From the NCBI GenBank assembly GCA_030148915.1, contig JASBSN010000021.1, positions 1 through 34,261 of the forward strand: DNA of 34,261 bases, given 5' to 3'. A program made the translations under genes and the position numbers. Under the pieces are notes generated by a model, which saw nothing but the letters and a program-made list of their open reading frames with translations, made no database searches and had not been told where the DNA came from. The stretch is from Thiogranum sp. (GTDB taxonomy: Bacteria > Pseudomonadota > Gammaproteobacteria > DSM-19610). How positions within the stretch are numbered: the first letter of the stretch is position 1; each line of letters opens with the position of its first letter. This document shows, in pieces, positions 15,522-24,335 of the stretch.

Positions 15522-16202
15522 TTAACCGGGCAAGCTGACCAGCCCGTAGCGCATCGCCAGGTGCATCAGCTCAACGTCGGTGTTGGCCTGCAGCTTGTCG
15601 AGCAGGCGGTTGCGGTAACTGTTGACGGTCTTGCGGGTCAGGCAGAGCTCGCGCGCCATGGCCGCCGCCGAGCGCCCCGCAGCGACCAGCAGCAGAATTT
15701 GCAGCTCCCGGTGGGTGAGACCGTCAAACGGGGTTGCGCTTCGACCGGGCATGCGCCGCTCCGCCAGTTTCTGCGCCACTGATTTACTGACATAGCGTTG
15801 GCCACCCATCACCGTGTCGATGGCGACAAACAGCTCCTCCGGCGCACAGTTGCCGTTGAGCAGACCCGCGACGCCGGATTGCAACAGGCGTTCCTGCACA
15901 ATCAGGTCCGAGGGGTCGGTGAGTATCACCACGCGCATATTGCTGAACTGGCGTTGTACCTTGCGCACGCCATCGAGCACGTCCACCCTCTCGCCGGGCA
16001 GATTGACCAGCATCAGCTGCGGCAGCTGGATTCTCGCGCACCGGATAGCCTCAGCGAAACCGGCCACACTGGCACAGACCACCAGATACCCCGAGTCGGT
16101 CAAAACCCGCTCGATACCGGTGCGCACCAGCTGTCGGCTGTCGACCAGCAACACCTCGACCGGCCGGTCCGCCGCATGGACAAAGGATCCTGAAACCGCC
16201 AT
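15522..16202 (-). CDS. NarL/FixJ-type response regulator with degenerate receiver
   Basis: A 226-aa protein: receiver-like domain (about 12-130) and C-terminal LuxR-type helix-turn-helix (LTHRELQILLLVAAGRSAAAMARELCLTRKTVNSYRNRLLDKL). The receiver lacks key residues. Only one acidic residue is left at the pocket (LLVDSRQ). The phosphoacceptor position in LMLVNLPGE is Asn. The conserved Lys is missing (GLLNGNC). It probably works without phosphorylation. The start is the ATG at 16202; a GTG at 16208 is possible. A paralogue with an intact receiver lies just upstream in the same direction (gap 97 nt). Confidence 0.9.
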   Translation of the reverse strand: MAVSGSFVHAADRPVEVLLVDSRQLVRTGIERVLTDSGYLVVCASVAGFAEAIRCARIQLPQLMLVNLPGERVDVLDGVRKVQRQFSNMRVVILTDPSDLIVQERLLQSGVAGLLNGNCAPEELFVAIDTVMGGQRYVSKSVAQKLAERRMPGRSATPFDGLTHRELQILLLVAAGRSAAAMARELCLTRKTVNSYRNRLLDKLQANTDVELMHLAMRYGLVSLPG

Positions 16203-16299
16203 AGCCACAACTGTTGCCTAGGTAAGTGTGTTGGACTAACGGCCGATGGAGGGGTTTCTTGAGCAGTCGGGCGGACCCTTTTATTTGCTTTTCATGGAC

Positions 16300-16959
16300 C
16301 TAGGCGTCCATTGCGGTGCCGACCACGCCGTGTCTGATGGCCAGGCGGGTCAACTCGACATCGTTGCCCACACCCAGTTTGTCAAACAAGCGGTAACGGT
16401 AAGTGCTGACCGTTTTCGAACTCAGGCACAGGCGCTCGGAAATGGCGTGCACGGTATGCCCCTGGGCGACCAACATCAACACCTGCACTTCGCGACCCGA
16501 GAGGCGGTCAAACGGCGACTGCTCGTTGCCGGGCAGCATCGATAGCGCCATCTGCCTGGCGATATCGGCGCTGAGGTAACGCTCGCCGCGCGCCACCACC
16601 CGCGCCGCATCGGCGATTTCTTCGATCGTACAATGTTTGGTGAGACAGCCCGAAGCGCCCGCCTCCAGGTACTGTGATTGCAGCGGGTCGTCGACATGAC
16701 GCGTGACCACGACAACGGCTGTAACGGGGACGGCGCGCGCGATGCGCCGGGTGACTTCGAGGCCGCCGATGCCGGGAATACGCGCGTCCATCACCACCAC
16801 ATCCGGCTTCAGATCACGTGTCTGGGCCACCACCTCGTCGCCGGTGGCCGCCTCGCCGATGACGTAGAGGCCGGCAACATCATCCAGCAGGCGCCTTAAC
16901 CCACAGCGCACCAGTTCCTGGTGATCCGCCAGTACAATTCTGATTTGCTTTTGCTTCAT
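16300..16959 (-). CDS. NarL/FixJ-type response regulator (UvrY/GacA-like)
   Basis: A 219-aa response regulator with an intact receiver: acidic pocket in IVLADHQE, phosphoacceptor D in VVVMDARIPG, T in VVVVTRH and K in GCLTKH. The C-terminal helix-turn-helix reads LSGREVQVLMLVAQGHTVHAISERLCLSSKTVSTYRYRLFDKL. This is the UvrY/GacA/NarL type, and in E. coli uvrY also lies next to uvrC. No sensor kinase is in the window. I chose the ATG at 16959 (protein MKQKQIRI) after an AAGGATCGAGGG stretch. Which signal it answers cannot be read from the sequence. Confidence 0.92.
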   Translation of the reverse strand: MKQKQIRIVLADHQELVRCGLRRLLDDVAGLYVIGEAATGDEVVAQTRDLKPDVVVMDARIPGIGGLEVTRRIARAVPVTAVVVVTRHVDDPLQSQYLEAGASGCLTKHCTIEEIADAARVVARGERYLSADIARQMALSMLPGNEQSPFDRLSGREVQVLMLVAQGHTVHAISERLCLSSKTVSTYRYRLFDKLGVGNDVELTRLAIRHGVVGTAMDA

Positions 16960-17185
16960 AACCCTCGATCCTTGTGGTTTGAGTAAAACCGCTGACAAGA
17001 CCGTTCGTCCCGAACAGTCAGTGATAACGGCGGCCAGGCCATATTCCCAACATGAGTCATTAATTGCTGGTGAATTCGGTGGTTAGGCACGCCTCCCAGA
17101 TTAAAGTGGTACCCTAAACGCGCCCTAAGCCCGGCCTGACGACAGGCGTGCTTTCTTAACATGATGGTTATCGGTGCCCTGTGTA

Positions 17186-17427: not shown

Positions 17428-18096
17428 ATGAATCGATTGTCCGATACTGTTATCCGCACCCGTCCCGCCGTACTGGGTGTCAACAAGGTTATTCGGAACA
17501 CCTATATTCTCTTATCGATGACGCTCCTGTTCAGTGCGCTGACCGCCGGTGTCTCGATGGCCATGAACCTGCCCCATCCCGGCATGCTGCTGACGATGGT
17601 CGGTTATTTTGGTCTGCTGTTCCTGACCAGCAAATTCCGCAACAGCGCCATGGGCCTGGTCTTCGTGTTCGCCCTGACGGGCTTTATGGGTCTGACACTC
17701 GGACCGATTATCAGCCTTTACCTGCACATGCCCAACGGGTCGCAGCTGGTCATGACCGCACTCGGGGCCACCGGCCTGATTTTTCTCTCGCTGTCGGGTT
17801 ACGCGCTGACCAGTCGCAAGGATTTCAGCTTCATGGGTGCTTTCCTGATGGTGGGCATTCTGGTGGCGTTCCTGGCCGGTCTGGCGGCGATGTTTTTCAG
17901 TATGCCGGGGCTGTCGCTCGCCGTAGCGGCCATGTTCGTGCTGTTGATGTCGGGGCTTATCCTTTATCAGACCAGCCAGCTGGTGCACGGTGGTGAAACC
18001 AATTACATCATGGCCACGGTCACCCTGTACGTCACTATCTACAACCTGTTTCTCAGTTTGCTGCAATTGCTGGGCGCTTTCAGCGGCGACGACTGA
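17428..18096 (+). CDS. Bax inhibitor-1/YccA-family membrane protein
   Basis: A 222-aa inner-membrane protein with seven hydrophobic segments: NTYILLSMTLLFSALTAGVSMAM, GMLLTMVGYFGLLFLTS, MGLVFVFALTGFMGLTLGPII, LVMTALGATGLIFLSLSGYAL, FMGAFLMVGILVAFLAGLAAMFF, SLAVAAMFVLLMSGLILY and IMATVTLYVTIYNLFLSLLQLLG. This is the BI-1 (UPF0005) layout of YccA/YbhL. YccA is known to interact with and restrain the FtsH protease; for this homologue that is inference. GAGG lies about 11 nt before the ATG, and a strong intrinsic terminator follows the stop. Confidence 0.93.
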   Translation: MNRLSDTVIRTRPAVLGVNKVIRNTYILLSMTLLFSALTAGVSMAMNLPHPGMLLTMVGYFGLLFLTSKFRNSAMGLVFVFALTGFMGLTLGPIISLYLHMPNGSQLVMTALGATGLIFLSLSGYALTSRKDFSFMGAFLMVGILVAFLAGLAAMFFSMPGLSLAVAAMFVLLMSGLILYQTSQLVHGGETNYIMATVTLYVTIYNLFLSLLQLLGAFSGDD

Positions 18097-18155: not shown

Positions 18156-19505
18156 TCAGTCTGTCAGATAGCCGCCGAGGCCGAACTCCGCCAGCGGCTC
18201 GACATAATAGCTACCCTGCGCCTCGGAGCACGCCAGCGTCTGCAACAGCTGTCGTTCCGCCGCCTGTTCGACACCCACCGCAGCCAGGCGCTTGCCGGTC
18301 TGGCCGGCTAACGCAGCCGTGCCGGCAGTCAGGCCCCGGGCCATGGCGTCCTCGGGCAAACGCCGGACCAACGCCGGGTCGAGTTTGATTAAGCCGATCG
18401 GCAGACGCACCAGTTCGGCCAGCGGCAGCCCGCCCGAACCGAAGCGATCCACCGCCAGGTTGATACCGAGCTTGCTCAATTCGGACAGCACACGCCGCGT
18501 TAGAGCGCTGTCCCTGAGCAGCACGGATTCTGCAAACTCCAACTGCAAACAGCCCGGAGCCAGGCTGCTTTCATACAGCGCGTCGAGCACCGAGAGCATG
18601 AACCCCGGGTCGGCGAGCTGGCGGAAAGATATATTGATGCAGCTACGCAAACCGGCCTGGCCACTGTCGATCAAGCGGCGCGCGCTGGCGCACGCCTGGA
18701 CGAGAAGCTGTTCTCCTACCGGTACAATCAGCCCGCTCTCTTCGAGCAGCGACAGAAACATCGCCGGAGGCAGGCAGCCGCGCTGCGGATGGCGCCAGCG
18801 CATGAGTCCTTCGACTGCCCGTACGCGGCCATCGTCCAGCCCCACGACCGGCTGATAGTGCAGCACAAATTCATCGTTTCGATAAGCCCGGTGCAGATCC
18901 CGGCTCAACTCTAAGCGCTGCATGGCCGCCCGCCCGATCCGTTCCGGCAGGATCCGATAACTCCCCCGGCTATCGAGCAGCGTCTGTTCGAGGGCCGCTT
19001 CGGTAGCCAGCCAGACCCGCGCGACCGCCCTGCTATCCCCAGGCAGCAGACTCGCGGCCATAGTCGGCAGCAGACTCGCCATCGTGGCGTGCTCCGGGCG
19101 GAAGCAACCCGCCAGGGTGGAATTCAATTTCTCCATCATCACCGGCACCGCCGATGACTCTTTGACATCCTCGAGCAGCAGGGCGAATCTCCCCTCTCCC
19201 AGACTGCTCAAGCTGTCAACGCAACGGATACAACTGGCCAGCCGATGCAACAGAAATCCGCCCGTTTCCTCCTCCCCGTTTTCCCCGGCACTGTACTGTT
19301 GTGGCGTAAACTGCAATAAGACGAACACCGCATAGGTCTGATTGCGCGCGGCGCGGCGCATCGCCGTATCGAGACGATCGCGCAACTGAGCGAGGCTGCA
19401 CAGACGCCCGCCTCTGCGCAGCACGTTCAGCGCGCTGTCTTCCGGCGGCGGTTGCGTAAAGATAGACTCTATCTCCTGCCAGAATGCGCTCTCCCTGAAC
19501 TCCAT
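18156..19505 (-). CDS. Degenerate GGDEF-EAL protein downstream of luxI
   Basis: A 449-aa soluble protein. The first half holds a diguanylate-cyclase-like fold in which the GGDEF position reads GEGRF in SLGEGRFALLLED, so cyclase activity is unlikely. The second half (about 200-449) is an EAL domain: EGL in RAVEGLMRWRHP, Asn in INISFRQ, Glu in LQLEFAES, Lys in GLIKLD, and Gln in EAQGSYY. The metal pair DDFGTG reads DRFGSG, and the AEGVE Glu reads AVGVE, so phosphodiesterase activity is probably lost or weak. It may sense c-di-GMP or bind a partner. I chose the ATG at 19505, 4 nt after the previous gene. Confidence 0.88.
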   Translation of the reverse strand: MEFRESAFWQEIESIFTQPPPEDSALNVLRRGGRLCSLAQLRDRLDTAMRRAARNQTYAVFVLLQFTPQQYSAGENGEEETGGFLLHRLASCIRCVDSLSSLGEGRFALLLEDVKESSAVPVMMEKLNSTLAGCFRPEHATMASLLPTMAASLLPGDSRAVARVWLATEAALEQTLLDSRGSYRILPERIGRAAMQRLELSRDLHRAYRNDEFVLHYQPVVGLDDGRVRAVEGLMRWRHPQRGCLPPAMFLSLLEESGLIVPVGEQLLVQACASARRLIDSGQAGLRSCINISFRQLADPGFMLSVLDALYESSLAPGCLQLEFAESVLLRDSALTRRVLSELSKLGINLAVDRFGSGGLPLAELVRLPIGLIKLDPALVRRLPEDAMARGLTAGTAALAGQTGKRLAAVGVEQAAERQLLQTLACSEAQGSYYVEPLAEFGLGGYLTD

Positions 19506-19509
19506 CGGC

Positions 19510-19923
19510 TCAGCCTGTCCGTTCCATGGGCGCGTGATATTCAAACACAAACGCGTCGAGCGCCTCGTCCGGTGTCACGGAGCCACCCCCTTCTCCCGCG
19601 CCAGCAGCAATTTTTCTGCCACAACACAACTCCAGTACGCCGTTGGCATTCCACTGCACCCGGCACGGTGCGGGGCGGCCGCCCTCGGCAAATAGAACGC
19701 CTATTGCACGCAGTGACTGGAGAAATTCCTTTTCGTCCCCACCCATCCCCGCGCCGTCGATCAGCACCCAGTCGACAGGTTGCTGAATCCGCTCGATGGC
19801 CGCACTGATGTCGTGGCTGTCACCGCTGCAATAGGTAACCCGGCAACCACCGCGCGGAGCCAATGGCAAGTCGCTCTCGGCGCGTGGTCGTTGACTGAGT
19901 ACAAGAATACGCTGTTGCTTCAT
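19510..19923 (-). CDS. Small receiver-like protein between luxI and the EAL gene
   Basis: A 137-aa protein that I cannot assign to a named family. The outline resembles a shortened response-regulator receiver: a first strand RILVLSQRP, a second strand CRVTYCSG, then helix DISAAIERIQ, and DWVLIDGAGMGGDEKEFLQSLR, where the Asp is placed like a phosphoacceptor. The first acidic pair and the helix 1 region are lost, and the C-terminus is Gly-rich (AAGAGEGGGS). It starts 10 nt after luxI (ATG at 19923) and ends 4 nt before the EAL gene, so it is in the quorum-sensing operon. It could be an adaptor for that protein. Confidence 0.6.
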   Translation of the reverse strand: MKQQRILVLSQRPRAESDLPLAPRGGCRVTYCSGDSHDISAAIERIQQPVDWVLIDGAGMGGDEKEFLQSLRAIGVLFAEGGRPAPCRVQWNANGVLELCCGRKIAAGAGEGGGSVTPDEALDAFVFEYHAPMERTG

Positions 19924-19933
19924 GCCGGATCGA

Positions 19934-20557
19934 TCAAGCGGCCTGATGAACAATATCGCGCCCGTGTGGATAAACCACCTCGGCGAACTGGTGGTTTATA
20001 TCGACCCAGCAGGCCACGGTCAGCACCCTGCCGACTTTTTGCGCGCGGCCGTCGCCCAGCCGTCTGATCGGCAAGCCGGTGCGCTTCAACAGGCGTTCAA
20101 GCGCGACGCTGATGACCGTGACGAACTGGGTCAACCGTCGCTCCACGGCAAACTCGTAAAGGCTGCGGATCATGCCCATGGTGACGCTGTTCAACGGTGC
20201 CTGATGCGTCGTCTCCTCGCCGCTATCGGCATCCACGGCAAACCGGCTAAGCTCCCAGATACGGGAATCGCACGGCGCCGACTCGCTCTGCAGAAGTTGT
20301 GGAAAGGTATCCTTGAGCATGTAGTCGCCGGTCGTCGGCATCAGTCGCCAGCAGCCTTCGATGGCGCCGGTGGGGCGCTTGGCCAGCATGTAAACGGGAT
20401 TCATGGTATCGAACAGGTCGAACTCGAGATTATCCCGTGTATCCACATCCCATCCAAGCCGGTTGCAGAACACCCGGTGCCTGAAAGCGAACATGCCACG
20501 CAGCGTCAGCGCGTCAAATCCCGGCAACTCACCACCCGCCAAAATGATTTCGCTCAT
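19934..20557 (-). CDS. luxI: Acyl-homoserine-lactone synthase (LuxI family)
   Basis: A 207-aa autoinducer synthase that joins the acyl group of an acyl-ACP to S-adenosylmethionine and releases an N-acyl homoserine lactone. The invariant residues appear in order: R26, F30, W36 (FRHRVFCNRLGW), D47 and D50 (EFDLFD), R71 (GCWRLMPTTGDYML), E102 and R105 (WELSRFA). The start at 20557 has GGAGGAG 6 nt upstream. It is preceded by the LuxR-type gene in the same direction and by a lux-box-like site at 20616-20635. The acyl-chain length of the signal cannot be read from the sequence. Confidence 0.95.
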   Translation of the reverse strand: MSEIILAGGELPGFDALTLRGMFAFRHRVFCNRLGWDVDTRDNLEFDLFDTMNPVYMLAKRPTGAIEGCWRLMPTTGDYMLKDTFPQLLQSESAPCDSRIWELSRFAVDADSGEETTHQAPLNSVTMGMIRSLYEFAVERRLTQFVTVISVALERLLKRTGLPIRRLGDGRAQKVGRVLTVACWVDINHQFAEVVYPHGRDIVHQAA

Positions 20558-20615
20558 GACTTACTCCTCCATGCAAAAGACACGGAGCAGTAAATCGTTA
20601 ATTGGCGAAAGAACG

Positions 20616-20635
20616 TACTGTCAGATATTACAGGT
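20616..20635 (-). promoter_or_regulatory. lux-box-like LuxR binding site upstream of luxI
   Basis: The minus strand reads ACCTGTAATATCTGACAGTA, a 20-bp element with the CT-N12-AG spacing of lux-type boxes and 14 of 20 bases identical to the Vibrio fischeri lux box. It is centred about 68 nt upstream of the luxI start codon, which allows the usual placement near -42 of a promoter. A TAACGAT-like -10 lies near 20594-20600. It suggests positive autoinduction by the adjacent LuxR. Confidence 0.75.
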
Positions 20636-20664
20636 ACAGCGAAGCGTGGCAGCGGCTGTCGGCG

Positions 20665-21411
20665 CTACTGATTGAACTGCGGCTCGATGATCCCCAGAGA
20701 AACCGCCCTGGCCACCGCCTGTTGACGGTTGTTCACACCCAGCTTGCCCTGAACATTTTGCAAATGGAAGGTCACCGTGCGCTCCGCAATGCTCAGAATC
20801 TGCGAGGTTTCCCAGGCCGTCTTGCCTTCGGTCGCCCAGAGCAGGCATTCTTTTTCGCGCTGGGTCAGATCGACTTTTGACAGGGCCACCACATCGGCGT
20901 CGAACACCCGCCGTACCGCTTCGTGCAGGTAGGCGGTAAACAATTGCCCCAGCGGCAGCACACGCTGGATACAGGTTCGGGACTGCGGACCGGTTTTGCC
21001 GCTGGCGAAACTGAGCATGGCAAAATCGCCCTGCGAAGTATGGATCGGGAAACTCACGCCGCTGTTGATGCCGAAATCGCGCGCTTCACTCATAAACCGG
21101 CGAATTTCCGCGCGGCCGCCGGTAAGCATGTCATCGTCCCAGGCCATCGGCGTTATGTTCTGGGCGCAGTACTGAACCGTGGGGTCAATAACCATGTAAT
21201 TGTTGGCGGTATAATGCTCGCGCCACTCTCTGGGATAGCCACTGATAAAAATAAAATAGGGTTTGACGAACGAGGTCGGGATACGCGCACCGTAAATGAA
21301 GCGCTCAAAGCCATGCTCCTGGCAAACGCCCGCGCAGATCGTGTGCAGCCGGTCCACGCTCTCGGCCTCGGCGAGCGCGTCGATTACCTCAAGCGAATTC
21401 GTGGCGTCCAT
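20665..21411 (-). CDS. luxR: LuxR-family acyl-homoserine-lactone receptor/regulator
   Basis: A 248-aa quorum-sensing regulator. The autoinducer-binding domain (about 15-165) has the pocket residues at family positions: W63 and Y67 (YPREWREHY), D76-P77 (VIDPTVQ), W91 (PMAWDDD) and Gly in DFGINSGVSFPIH. The C-terminal domain (about 185-248) is a LuxR helix-turn-helix, LTQREKECLLWATEGKTAWETSQILSIAERTVTFHLQNVQGKLG. It lies 107 nt upstream of luxI in the same direction. The minus strand shows TTGGCA and TTCTAT spaced by 17 bases upstream of the start, a possible promoter. Confidence 0.94.
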   Translation of the reverse strand: MDATNSLEVIDALAEAESVDRLHTICAGVCQEHGFERFIYGARIPTSFVKPYFIFISGYPREWREHYTANNYMVIDPTVQYCAQNITPMAWDDDMLTGGRAEIRRFMSEARDFGINSGVSFPIHTSQGDFAMLSFASGKTGPQSRTCIQRVLPLGQLFTAYLHEAVRRVFDADVVALSKVDLTQREKECLLWATEGKTAWETSQILSIAERTVTFHLQNVQGKLGVNNRQQAVARAVSLGIIEPQFNQ

Positions 21412-21662: not shown

Positions 21663-24335
21663 ATGACCGACATTGTCGGAGATTCCGCCGCCGCTTCCGC
21701 GCCGCGCACGGTTTACCTGAAAGACTACCAGCCGCCGCTCTACCTGATCGAAGCCGTCGAGTTGCGCGTTGAGCTGGACCCCTCACAAACCTGCGTATCC
21801 AGCCGCCTGCGGGTCAGACATAACCCCGCGCAGGCGGTCGCCGGACAGCCCCTGATACTGGACGGCCAGGACCTGGAGTTGGTCTCCGTGTCTGTGGACG
21901 GGCAGCGGCTGAGCGACGACCGCTACCGGCTCGACGACGAGCACCTGGAATTGCCCGCGCCGGACGATGGCGCGCTGGTGGAGATAAACACCCGTATCGC
22001 ACCGGACAAAAATACCGCGCTGGAAGGGCTCTATGTCTCCGGCGGCATGTTCTGTACGCAATGCGAAGCCGAGGGGTTTCGCCGCATCACCTATTTCCCC
22101 GATCGCCCGGACGTCATGGCGCGTTTTACCACCACGCTGGTGGCCGACAGGCAAAGCTGCCCGGTACTGCTGTCCAACGGTAACCCGGTGGGCGGCGGCG
22201 AGCTTGACGACGGGCGTCACTGGGCCACCTGGGAGGACCCCTTTCCCAAACCCAGCTACTTGTTTGCGCTGGTGGCGGGCAGCCTCTACTGCCAGCAGGA
22301 TCGGTTCATTACCGGCTCGGGGCGCGAGGTGACGCTGAAAATCTATGTCGAGCCGAGCAACAGCGCTAAATGCCAGCACGCCCTGGATTCGCTGAAACAG
22401 GCCATGGCGTGGGACGAGGCGACCTACGGGCGCGAATACGATCTGGATATTTTCATGATCGTCGCCGTGGACGATTTCAACATGGGGGCGATGGAGAATA
22501 AGGGGCTGAATATTTTCAACTCGGCCTGCGTCCTGGCCAGCCCCGAAACCGCCACCGACGCGGACTACTACAACATCCAGAGCATTATCGGTCACGAGTA
22601 TTTCCACAACTGGTCCGGCAACCGCGTGACCTGTCGCGACTGGTTTCAGCTGAGTCTCAAGGAAGGCTTTACGGTGTTTCGCGATCAGGAATTCAGCGCC
22701 GATCTGAATTCACGGCCGGTCAAGCGCATTGCCGATGTCAACGTGCTGCGCGGCCATCAGTTCGCCCAAGACGCCAGCCCCATGGCCCACCCGGTGCGCC
22801 CCGACGCGTACATGGAGATCAGCAATTTCTATACGGTCACGGTCTACAATAAAGGCGCCGAAGTGGTACGCATGCTGCGCACTCTGATCGGCGCCGCCGG
22901 CTTTCGCAAGGGCTGCGATCTTTACTTCGAGCGCCACGACGGCCAGGCCGTCACCACCGATGATTTCGTCGCCGCCATGGAAGACGCCAACCACCTCGAC
23001 CTCGGCCAATTCCGGTGGTGGTACCAACAGGCCGGCACGCCGGTGGTCCGGGCCATGCCCCACTACGACGCGCAGCAACAGTGCCTGCAACTGACGCTGG
23101 AGCAATCCACGCCACCCACCCCGGGCCAGAAAGACAAACTGGCGCTGCACATCCCGGTGGACCTCGCGCTGCTGGATGCCGGTGGCAAGCCGCTGCCGGT
23201 CACGCTGGAAGGTGAAACGCCCAATGGCGACACCCACCGTATCCTGGCTCTGCGCGAAGCCCGTCAGGTGTTCCGTTTCACCGGTATCGCCCAGCCGCCG
23301 GTGCTATCGCTGCTGCGTGGCTTCTCCGCGCCGGTCAAATTGGTGATCGAACGCAGTAGCGAAGAACTGGCCTTTTTGTTTGCCCACGACCCCGACCCCT
23401 TCAACCGCTGGGACGCCGGCCAGACGCTGGCGATCAACACGCTGCTGGCGCTGGTCGCCGCTCACCGCGAGGGCGCGGCGCCGAGTCTGGAGCCGCGCTT
23501 TGTCAGCGCTTTTCAGGCCACACTGGAACACCCCGACCTCGACCCCGCGTTGATCGCCCAGGCGTTGAGCTTACCCGCCGAGTCCTATCTCGCCGACCAA
23601 TGCGAGCGCGTTGACGTAGAGGCCATTCACGCGGCGCGCGAGTTTGTCCGCCACACGCTCGCCCGGCAGTTACAGGACGGATTCGCCGCCCGCTATCAGC
23701 GCTACGATCACCCGCAACCCTATCGCTTCGACGCCGAGGCGATGGGACAGCGCTCGCTGAAAAACCTCTGCCTGGCGTACCTCGCCGAGACCGGCACGGG
23801 TGAGGCCCGCGAGCGCTGCCTGCGGCAGCTGCAAACAGCCAACAACATGACCGACTCGCTGGCGGCCCTGGCGACACTGGCCGAACACGACTGGCCGGAA
23901 CGCGAAGCGCAGCTGGAGCAGTTCTACCAACAGTGGCAACACGACCCGCAGGTGGTGGATAAATGGTTCGCCATTCAGGCCGGTTCGCGTTTGCCCGAGA
24001 CCCTCGCGCGGGTCAAGGCCTTAATGCGCCACCCGGCCTTCCGCCTGACCAATCCGAACAAGGTGCGCGCGCTGGTGGGGCGTTTTTGCATGGGTAATCC
24101 GGTGCGTTTCCACGCCGCCGACGGCGAGGGCTATCGCTTTCTGGCCGATCAGGTGATCGAGCTCGACAGCATCAATCCGCAGATAGCCGCACGCCTGGTC
24201 AGCGCGCTGAGTCGCTGGAAACGCTTCGATGCCGCCCGCCAGGCGCTGATGCGCGAGCAACTGGAACGCATCGTCGAACGGGCCAAGGTGTCGCGGGACG
24301 TGTTCGAAATTGTTTCTAAGAGTCTCGGCCGGTAA
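21663..24335 (+). CDS. pepN: Aminopeptidase N (M1 family)
   Basis: An 890-aa zinc aminopeptidase that trims N-terminal residues from peptides in the cytoplasm. Exopeptidase motif GAMEN (about 275-279), zinc motif HEYFHNW (about 311-317) and the second zinc ligand Glu 19 residues on, in SLKEGFTVFRDQEFS (about 334), are all present. The length equals the E. coli PepN class (about 870-890), with the gammaproteobacterial C-terminal helical domain. The ATG at 21663 follows a weak ribosome binding site. The reading frame is intact. Confidence 0.97.
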   Translation: MTDIVGDSAAASAPRTVYLKDYQPPLYLIEAVELRVELDPSQTCVSSRLRVRHNPAQAVAGQPLILDGQDLELVSVSVDGQRLSDDRYRLDDEHLELPAPDDGALVEINTRIAPDKNTALEGLYVSGGMFCTQCEAEGFRRITYFPDRPDVMARFTTTLVADRQSCPVLLSNGNPVGGGELDDGRHWATWEDPFPKPSYLFALVAGSLYCQQDRFITGSGREVTLKIYVEPSNSAKCQHALDSLKQAMAWDEATYGREYDLDIFMIVAVDDFNMGAMENKGLNIFNSACVLASPETATDADYYNIQSIIGHEYFHNWSGNRVTCRDWFQLSLKEGFTVFRDQEFSADLNSRPVKRIADVNVLRGHQFAQDASPMAHPVRPDAYMEISNFYTVTVYNKGAEVVRMLRTLIGAAGFRKGCDLYFERHDGQAVTTDDFVAAMEDANHLDLGQFRWWYQQAGTPVVRAMPHYDAQQQCLQLTLEQSTPPTPGQKDKLALHIPVDLALLDAGGKPLPVTLEGETPNGDTHRILALREARQVFRFTGIAQPPVLSLLRGFSAPVKLVIERSSEELAFLFAHDPDPFNRWDAGQTLAINTLLALVAAHREGAAPSLEPRFVSAFQATLEHPDLDPALIAQALSLPAESYLADQCERVDVEAIHAAREFVRHTLARQLQDGFAARYQRYDHPQPYRFDAEAMGQRSLKNLCLAYLAETGTGEARERCLRQLQTANNMTDSLAALATLAEHDWPEREAQLEQFYQQWQHDPQVVDKWFAIQAGSRLPETLARVKALMRHPAFRLTNPNKVRALVGRFCMGNPVRFHAADGEGYRFLADQVIELDSINPQIAARLVSALSRWKRFDAARQALMREQLERIVERAKVSRDVFEIVSKSLGR

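Follow-up and report, generated by a model that had tools for sequence, protein, structure and literature searches.

We analysed a 34,261-nucleotide (nt) stretch of DNA, hereafter the window (contig JASBSN010000021.1, positions 1 to 34,261 of the forward strand, assembly GCA_030148915.1), from Thiogranum sp., a gammaproteobacterium of the GTDB lineage DSM-19610. It contains a quorum-sensing locus in which luxR, a lux box, luxI, a small gene that we name SML, and a gene encoding a GGDEF-EAL protein follow one another in that order, all on the minus strand, with intergenic gaps of 107 nt (luxR-luxI), 10 nt (luxI-SML) and 4 nt (SML-EAL). A preliminary description made from the sequence had proposed this shared orientation and close spacing, and both hold. 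Here we define the components of the locus, document its conservation, and consider how an acyl-homoserine lactone (AHL) signal might be coupled through it to a protein related to the enzymes of cyclic di-GMP (c-di-GMP) turnover.

Components and regulatory site of the lux locus

The first gene, luxR (20665..21411), encodes an SdiA-like AHL-binding transcription factor of 248 amino acids (aa), recognized by the Pfam domains Autoind_bind (E 5e-40) and GerE (E 2e-18); these domains, its luxI neighbour and the lux box identify it as a LuxR-type receptor predicted to bind AHL. The luxI product (19934..20557; 207 aa) has the attributes of a LuxI-type AHL synthase, including the Autoind_synth domain (PF00765; E 6e-38; 130.6 bits, against a cut-off of 24) and the residues R26, F30, W36, D47, D50, R71, E102 and R105, which are invariant in an alignment of eight sequences. 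It is the one LuxI-type synthase match that a search of the genome found. The nearest named relatives of this genome are metagenome-assembled genomes (MAGs) of Thiogranum (LuxI 76-81% identical), and luxR orthologues beside luxI in relatives are 60-85% identical. A contig search with LuxI retrieved only Thiogranum MAGs and Vibrio loci, the latter lacking SML; plasmid-borne relatives of LuxI fall below 60% identity. Elsewhere, one contig of another genome (L035; G029 contig 38) has no SML but carries a pair of distant matches to LuxI-like synthases that lie inside ~1 kb of the same strand.

The luxR-luxI intergenic region contains the lux box ACCTGTAATATCTGACAGTA (20616..20635, minus strand), whose score is equalled in 0.6% of shuffles of that region. 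A -10-like hexamer, TTTACT (20589..20594, minus strand), was read from the sequence 21 nt downstream of the box, a distance corresponding to class II LuxR-type spacing; relatives present TTAACT, TCTACT or TGTACT at the same position (read by eye, without statistics). We searched 20 genomes of the genus and family, several of them incomplete MAGs, at a detection threshold of E <= 0.001. All ten family genomes bearing luxI have a lux box ahead of it; the equivalent boxes in the rest of the family lie 55-58 nt 5' of the luxI ATG, and six loci in other families have one 19-68 nt before the ATG. Single-locus shuffle fractions were <= 0.0085 at the other fifteen loci, G010 excepted, where overlap of the box with the luxR stop codon led the script to another site of poor quality; there the box was read by eye, at 57 nt.

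Since CTGT-N8-ACAG is also the LexA core, an SOS box was considered for the window site. We favour a lux box, on the grounds of its position between luxR and luxI and of the GATC centres in several of the family sites. The strict lux-box pattern occurs three times in the genome, and a control pattern does not occur at all. The other two occurrences are LexA-like in sequence, and one lies just 5' of an integrase gene; because they suggest SOS boxes, a wider lux regulon was dropped from consideration and none is claimed. On G000 contig 77 (L153 506-545) a LexA-like CTGT-N8-ACAG site lies just upstream of a tyrosine recombinase gene, possibly an integron-type integrase.

Conservation as a block in the Thiogranum family

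Among these marine relatives of Thiogranum, a luxI gene of this type occurs in ten of the 20 genomes, and SML matches occur in exactly those ten, always after luxI, in one instance as a luxI::SML deletion fusion (G008). The GGDEF-EAL gene comes directly next in nine of them, the contig of the tenth (G007) ending inside SML, and the SML-EAL gap ranges across the family from -11 to 16 nt. In the window the locus is flanked by pepN (21663-24335, plus strand), an aminopeptidase-N-like gene named from its sequence without a family search, and on the opposite side by bax1 (17428-18096, plus strand; Bax1-I family). In one genome lacking the lux genes (G005) pepN directly adjoins bax1, and in another (G009) the two are separated by an unrelated gene, judged from its sequence to be of tetR type; the four genes therefore come and go as a block. 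The preliminary description had staked its operon on the order being kept in relatives, and nine further genomes keep it, G007 as far as its contig reaches.

Both SML and the EAL gene are under purifying selection. In the closest pair of genomes (G014-G004), ratios of nonsynonymous to synonymous substitution (dN/dS, Nei-Gojobori) were 0.05 for LuxR, 0.07 for LuxI, 0.10 for SML and 0.09 for the EAL gene, the remaining pairs being saturated at synonymous sites.

Tandem GacA/UvrY-type response regulators (15522-16208 and 16300-16998, minus strand) are also kept beside the lux locus. The phospho-acceptor Asp of the former and of three orthologues is replaced by N or S, while the corresponding position of the latter and its orthologues is D or E.

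A pseudo-receiver and a GGDEF-EAL protein with predicted dead domains

SML (19510..19923) encodes 137 aa, within a range of 125-153 aa among its homologues, and has no family match in Pfam or NCBIfam. Its resemblance to a receiver, proposed in the preliminary description, is supported at the level of fold: comparison by hhalign with receiver profiles gave probabilities of 86% with the family alignment and 92% with a wider alignment, while control profiles of LuxI and EAL gave 0.3-0.4%. A homologue from another family (G326), modelled with AlphaFold2 (mean confidence, pLDDT, of 70, and ~80 over the first 80 residues), shows the beta-alpha topology of a receiver, and among the Foldseek matches listed for it receivers occur almost throughout (best E 1.7e-3). 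SML thus has a CheY-like receiver fold, though under Pfam detection. It lacks the acidic pocket and phospho-acceptor, there being no Asp pair after strand 1, and the position after strand 3 is occupied across the family by D, N, E, P or Q. Conservation is instead strongest in a C-terminal V-F-E-Y-H-A-P stretch, which we term the FEYHAP tail. Outside Gammaproteobacteria, SML searches returned only weak matches, nearly all to the receiver half of the profile and in longer frames.

The GGDEF-EAL gene (18156..19505) encodes 449 aa, with a clear Pfam EAL match (E 1e-52) and a GGDEF match under the cut-off (13.8 bits, against 23.8); the closest solved structure is the GGDEF-EAL region of MorA (4rnh, E 1e-89). 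The GG(D/E)EF motif of an active diguanylate cyclase is lost in nine of nine orthologues, the window sequence reading LGEGRF. The EAL domain likewise lacks the full catalytic set of an active phosphodiesterase in each of the nine: R, Q or H stands in place of the second DDFG Asp, and V or C in place of the Glu equivalent to E352 of RocR. This loss is selective. E175, the Arg of ExLxR, N233, E265, the first Asp of DDFG, K316, E355 and Q372 are invariant in all nine, and the 24 other GGDEF-EAL proteins of the same and related genomes keep, without exception, every EAL residue tabulated. Work on other proteins assigns functions to these positions. In PA3825 the two Asp residues of DDFG are ligands of metals M1 (first) and M2 (second) (PMC5301497), and in TBD1265 an Ala mutant at the E352 equivalent has no phosphodiesterase activity, whereas the second Glu, corresponding to E355 of RocR, can be mutated without effect (PMC12943098). 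The pattern of residues fits a protein in which catalysis has been lost and the substrate site of the EAL domain largely kept. Its dead centre and retained ExLxR make it a candidate c-di-GMP receptor of the LapD and FimX kind.

We therefore rejected, on the residue table, an active-enzyme reading of this gene. Both domains are predicted to be catalytically dead, the EAL domain may still bind c-di-GMP, and binding or protein-protein action appears the only plausible output of the protein. The suggestion in the preliminary description that the AHL circuit feeds into c-di-GMP accordingly stands in part: a predicted operon headed by the lux box does include the gene of the degenerate protein, but with the catalytic residues lost in all nine orthologues an enzymatic contribution is unlikely.

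Constant and exchangeable partners, and a proposed output arm

To examine the distribution of this arrangement beyond the family we used a class sample of 369 genomes and another 379 genomes of high completeness. Within the class sample, several further families carry LuxR/LuxI of this type, and it is SML, not the GGDEF-EAL gene, that is the constant companion of luxI, the next gene varying between families. In two genomes (G156 and G220) luxI is followed by SML and a GGDEF-EAL gene with intact EAL motifs, which in G156 comes after a gap of ~250 nt; in G308 SML precedes a response regulator of NarL/GacA type, and in G326 and G099 SML stands alone after luxI. More divergent arrangements include an SML-like gene followed by a PAS histidine kinase (G287) and a single in-frame open reading frame (ORF) uniting a second, divergent LuxI-like domain with SML (G258; L113 5970-6977), with genes for a sigma-54 activator and a FliA-like sigma factor coming next. 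In G354 (L116) a short Cys-rich ORF with CxxC pairs lies directly after luxI, ends in VLEYHMPCNKK, and precedes a histidine kinase and a receiver protein; this ORF resembles the tail of SML without the receiver part. Strong SML matches were found in five of the 379 high-completeness genomes, and SML is therefore rare. In a phylogenetic tree the GGDEF-EAL proteins of the Thiogranum family form a clade (support 100/100) apart from the pair from G156 and G220 (100/99). We nevertheless do not claim that different families recruited GGDEF-EAL genes to this position after luxI independently, because an approximately unbiased (AU) test does not reject a single clade (p 0.60).

Taken together, we assign a probability of about 0.6 to the locus being a self-amplifying AHL operon that includes an SML adaptor and a dead EAL protein acting by binding only. 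AHL-bound LuxR would activate the lux box, so that luxI, SML and the GGDEF-EAL gene would be transcribed jointly and the signal, the adaptor and the GGDEF-EAL protein would therefore rise in step at quorum. The GGDEF-EAL protein would neither make nor cleave c-di-GMP and would act by binding; the most likely ligand of its dead EAL domain would be c-di-GMP, in the manner of LapD or FimX, and/or partner proteins. The SML adaptor would most likely dock the neighbouring operon product, which is the GGDEF-EAL protein here and other regulators elsewhere. From sequence features, a single AHL-driven transcript spanning the three genes is likely. A strong promoter or terminator after luxI, which the preliminary description had named as a finding that would undo the operon, did not appear: an insensitive scan from luxI to the end of the EAL gene gave no promoter or minus-strand terminator match.

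Several observations weigh against this interpretation. The Shine-Dalgarno sequences before SML and the EAL gene are weak or absent; the model of the window SML itself is poor (pLDDT 44), the receiver model being that of the homologue from another family; and the closed genome G008 retains an intact EAL gene although its luxR is truncated and its luxI is broken by an in-frame deletion that fuses residues 1-60 to the C-terminal portion of SML (L032 7124-7564), so that the EAL protein may have its own role or promoter. The premise of the preliminary description, that AHL systems usually affect c-di-GMP through separate loci, does not give a clean novelty: work on Nitrospira has shown that a lux box common to nspI and a divergent GGDEF/EAL gene drives the latter, reporters for two overlapping lux-box regions responding to AHL with 197- and 14-fold induction (PMC8553950).

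The case of G008 also bears on whether the downstream genes lie outside AHL control, either through an internal promoter or because a decayed operon has left the EAL gene drifting. That EAL and SML evolve faster than luxR and luxI would agree with this, but the tight spacing has been kept, the genes are gained and lost as a block, the EAL gene is under purifying selection (dN/dS ~0.09 in the closest pair) and the promoter scan found no match in the region; we consider this explanation improbable. Still less credence can be given to a GGDEF-EAL protein that remains an active phosphodiesterase, with AHL lowering c-di-GMP directly. Seven catalytic positions are invariant, and the EAL motifs are complete in the luxI-linked proteins of G156 and G220; set against this, mutation of the E352 equivalent kills the activity of TBD1265 (PMC12943098), and the M2 metal ligand (PMC5301497) is R, Q or H in every orthologue. 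An alternative that deserves more weight, although we think it rather unlikely, is that SML acts on the synthase, binding LuxI and adjusting AHL synthesis, by analogy with the receiver domain of RpfC, for which sequestration of RpfF, the synthase of diffusible signal factor (DSF), has been proposed (PMC3744752); the EAL protein would then be a separate output. SML does follow luxI whichever gene comes third, a LuxI-like domain and SML share an ORF in G258, and the Foldseek matches include the RpfC receiver domain solved with RpfF (3m6m_D). However, the LuxI-like domain of G258 is a second, divergent copy, the 3m6m_D match is not specific to such an interaction because receivers match many solved complexes, and any contact between LuxI and SML is putative.

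The favoured reading, an operon with an SML adaptor and a binding-only EAL protein, has partial counterparts in known systems. NspR1/NspI of Nitrospira resembles it in having a GGDEF/EAL gene controlled from a lux box adjacent to the synthase gene; there that gene is divergent from nspI, whereas here it follows luxI and SML as the third gene of the predicted transcript, with an EAL domain predicted to be dead, and the part of the Nitrospira account consulted mentions no receiver-like small gene (PMC8553950). Small genes co-transcribed with a synthase are exemplified by CinS (with CinI of Rhizobium leguminosarum) and MmaP (with MmaI of Methylobacterium fujisawaense), a product of this type binding the regulator PraR and altering swarming (PMC10790750). 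SML shares their location directly 3' of the synthase gene, but MmaP has 59 aa and SML is a longer pseudo-receiver with a FEYHAP tail; they are compared by description, and homology is not claimed. The Rpf systems show a signal wired to a GGDEF-EAL protein (RpfF/RpfR of Burkholderia; PMC3703271) and, in Xanthomonas RpfF/RpfC, the receiver-synthase pairing described above. Their signals are fatty acids (DSF/BDSF) rather than AHL, and RpfR senses its signal through a PAS domain, absent here, and is an active phosphodiesterase. LapD and FimX are GGDEF-EAL proteins with a dead EAL domain, FimX lacking the DDFGTG motif (PMC5301497); the Thiogranum protein has no LapD-style membrane or HAMP part, has lost other residues, and its binding of c-di-GMP is predicted. 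The open-licence literature searched yielded no account of such an operon in Thiogranum. While direct AHL control of a GGDEF/EAL gene (in Nitrospira) and synthase-linked small adaptors are thus already known, what is new is the combination of a pseudo-receiver that constantly accompanies the synthase, output genes that vary, and an EAL domain that has been disabled selectively.

As a tentative generalization, which we regard as possible but doubtful, the locus may represent a gammaproteobacterial type of AHL operon in which SML, as the constant partner of the synthase, couples the circuit to exchangeable signalling proteins (dead or intact GGDEF-EAL proteins, a response regulator, a histidine kinase or a sigma-54 activator), providing a post-transcriptional arm whose EAL version would read c-di-GMP without metabolizing it. 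LuxR/LuxI circuits are usually drawn as transcription alone, and SML with its swappable neighbour would add an output arm at the level of protein, one small enough for a test with four genes in Escherichia coli. For Thiogranum, the selective loss of two EAL residues predicts that AHL induces the synthesis of a reader of c-di-GMP rather than of an enzyme acting on it.

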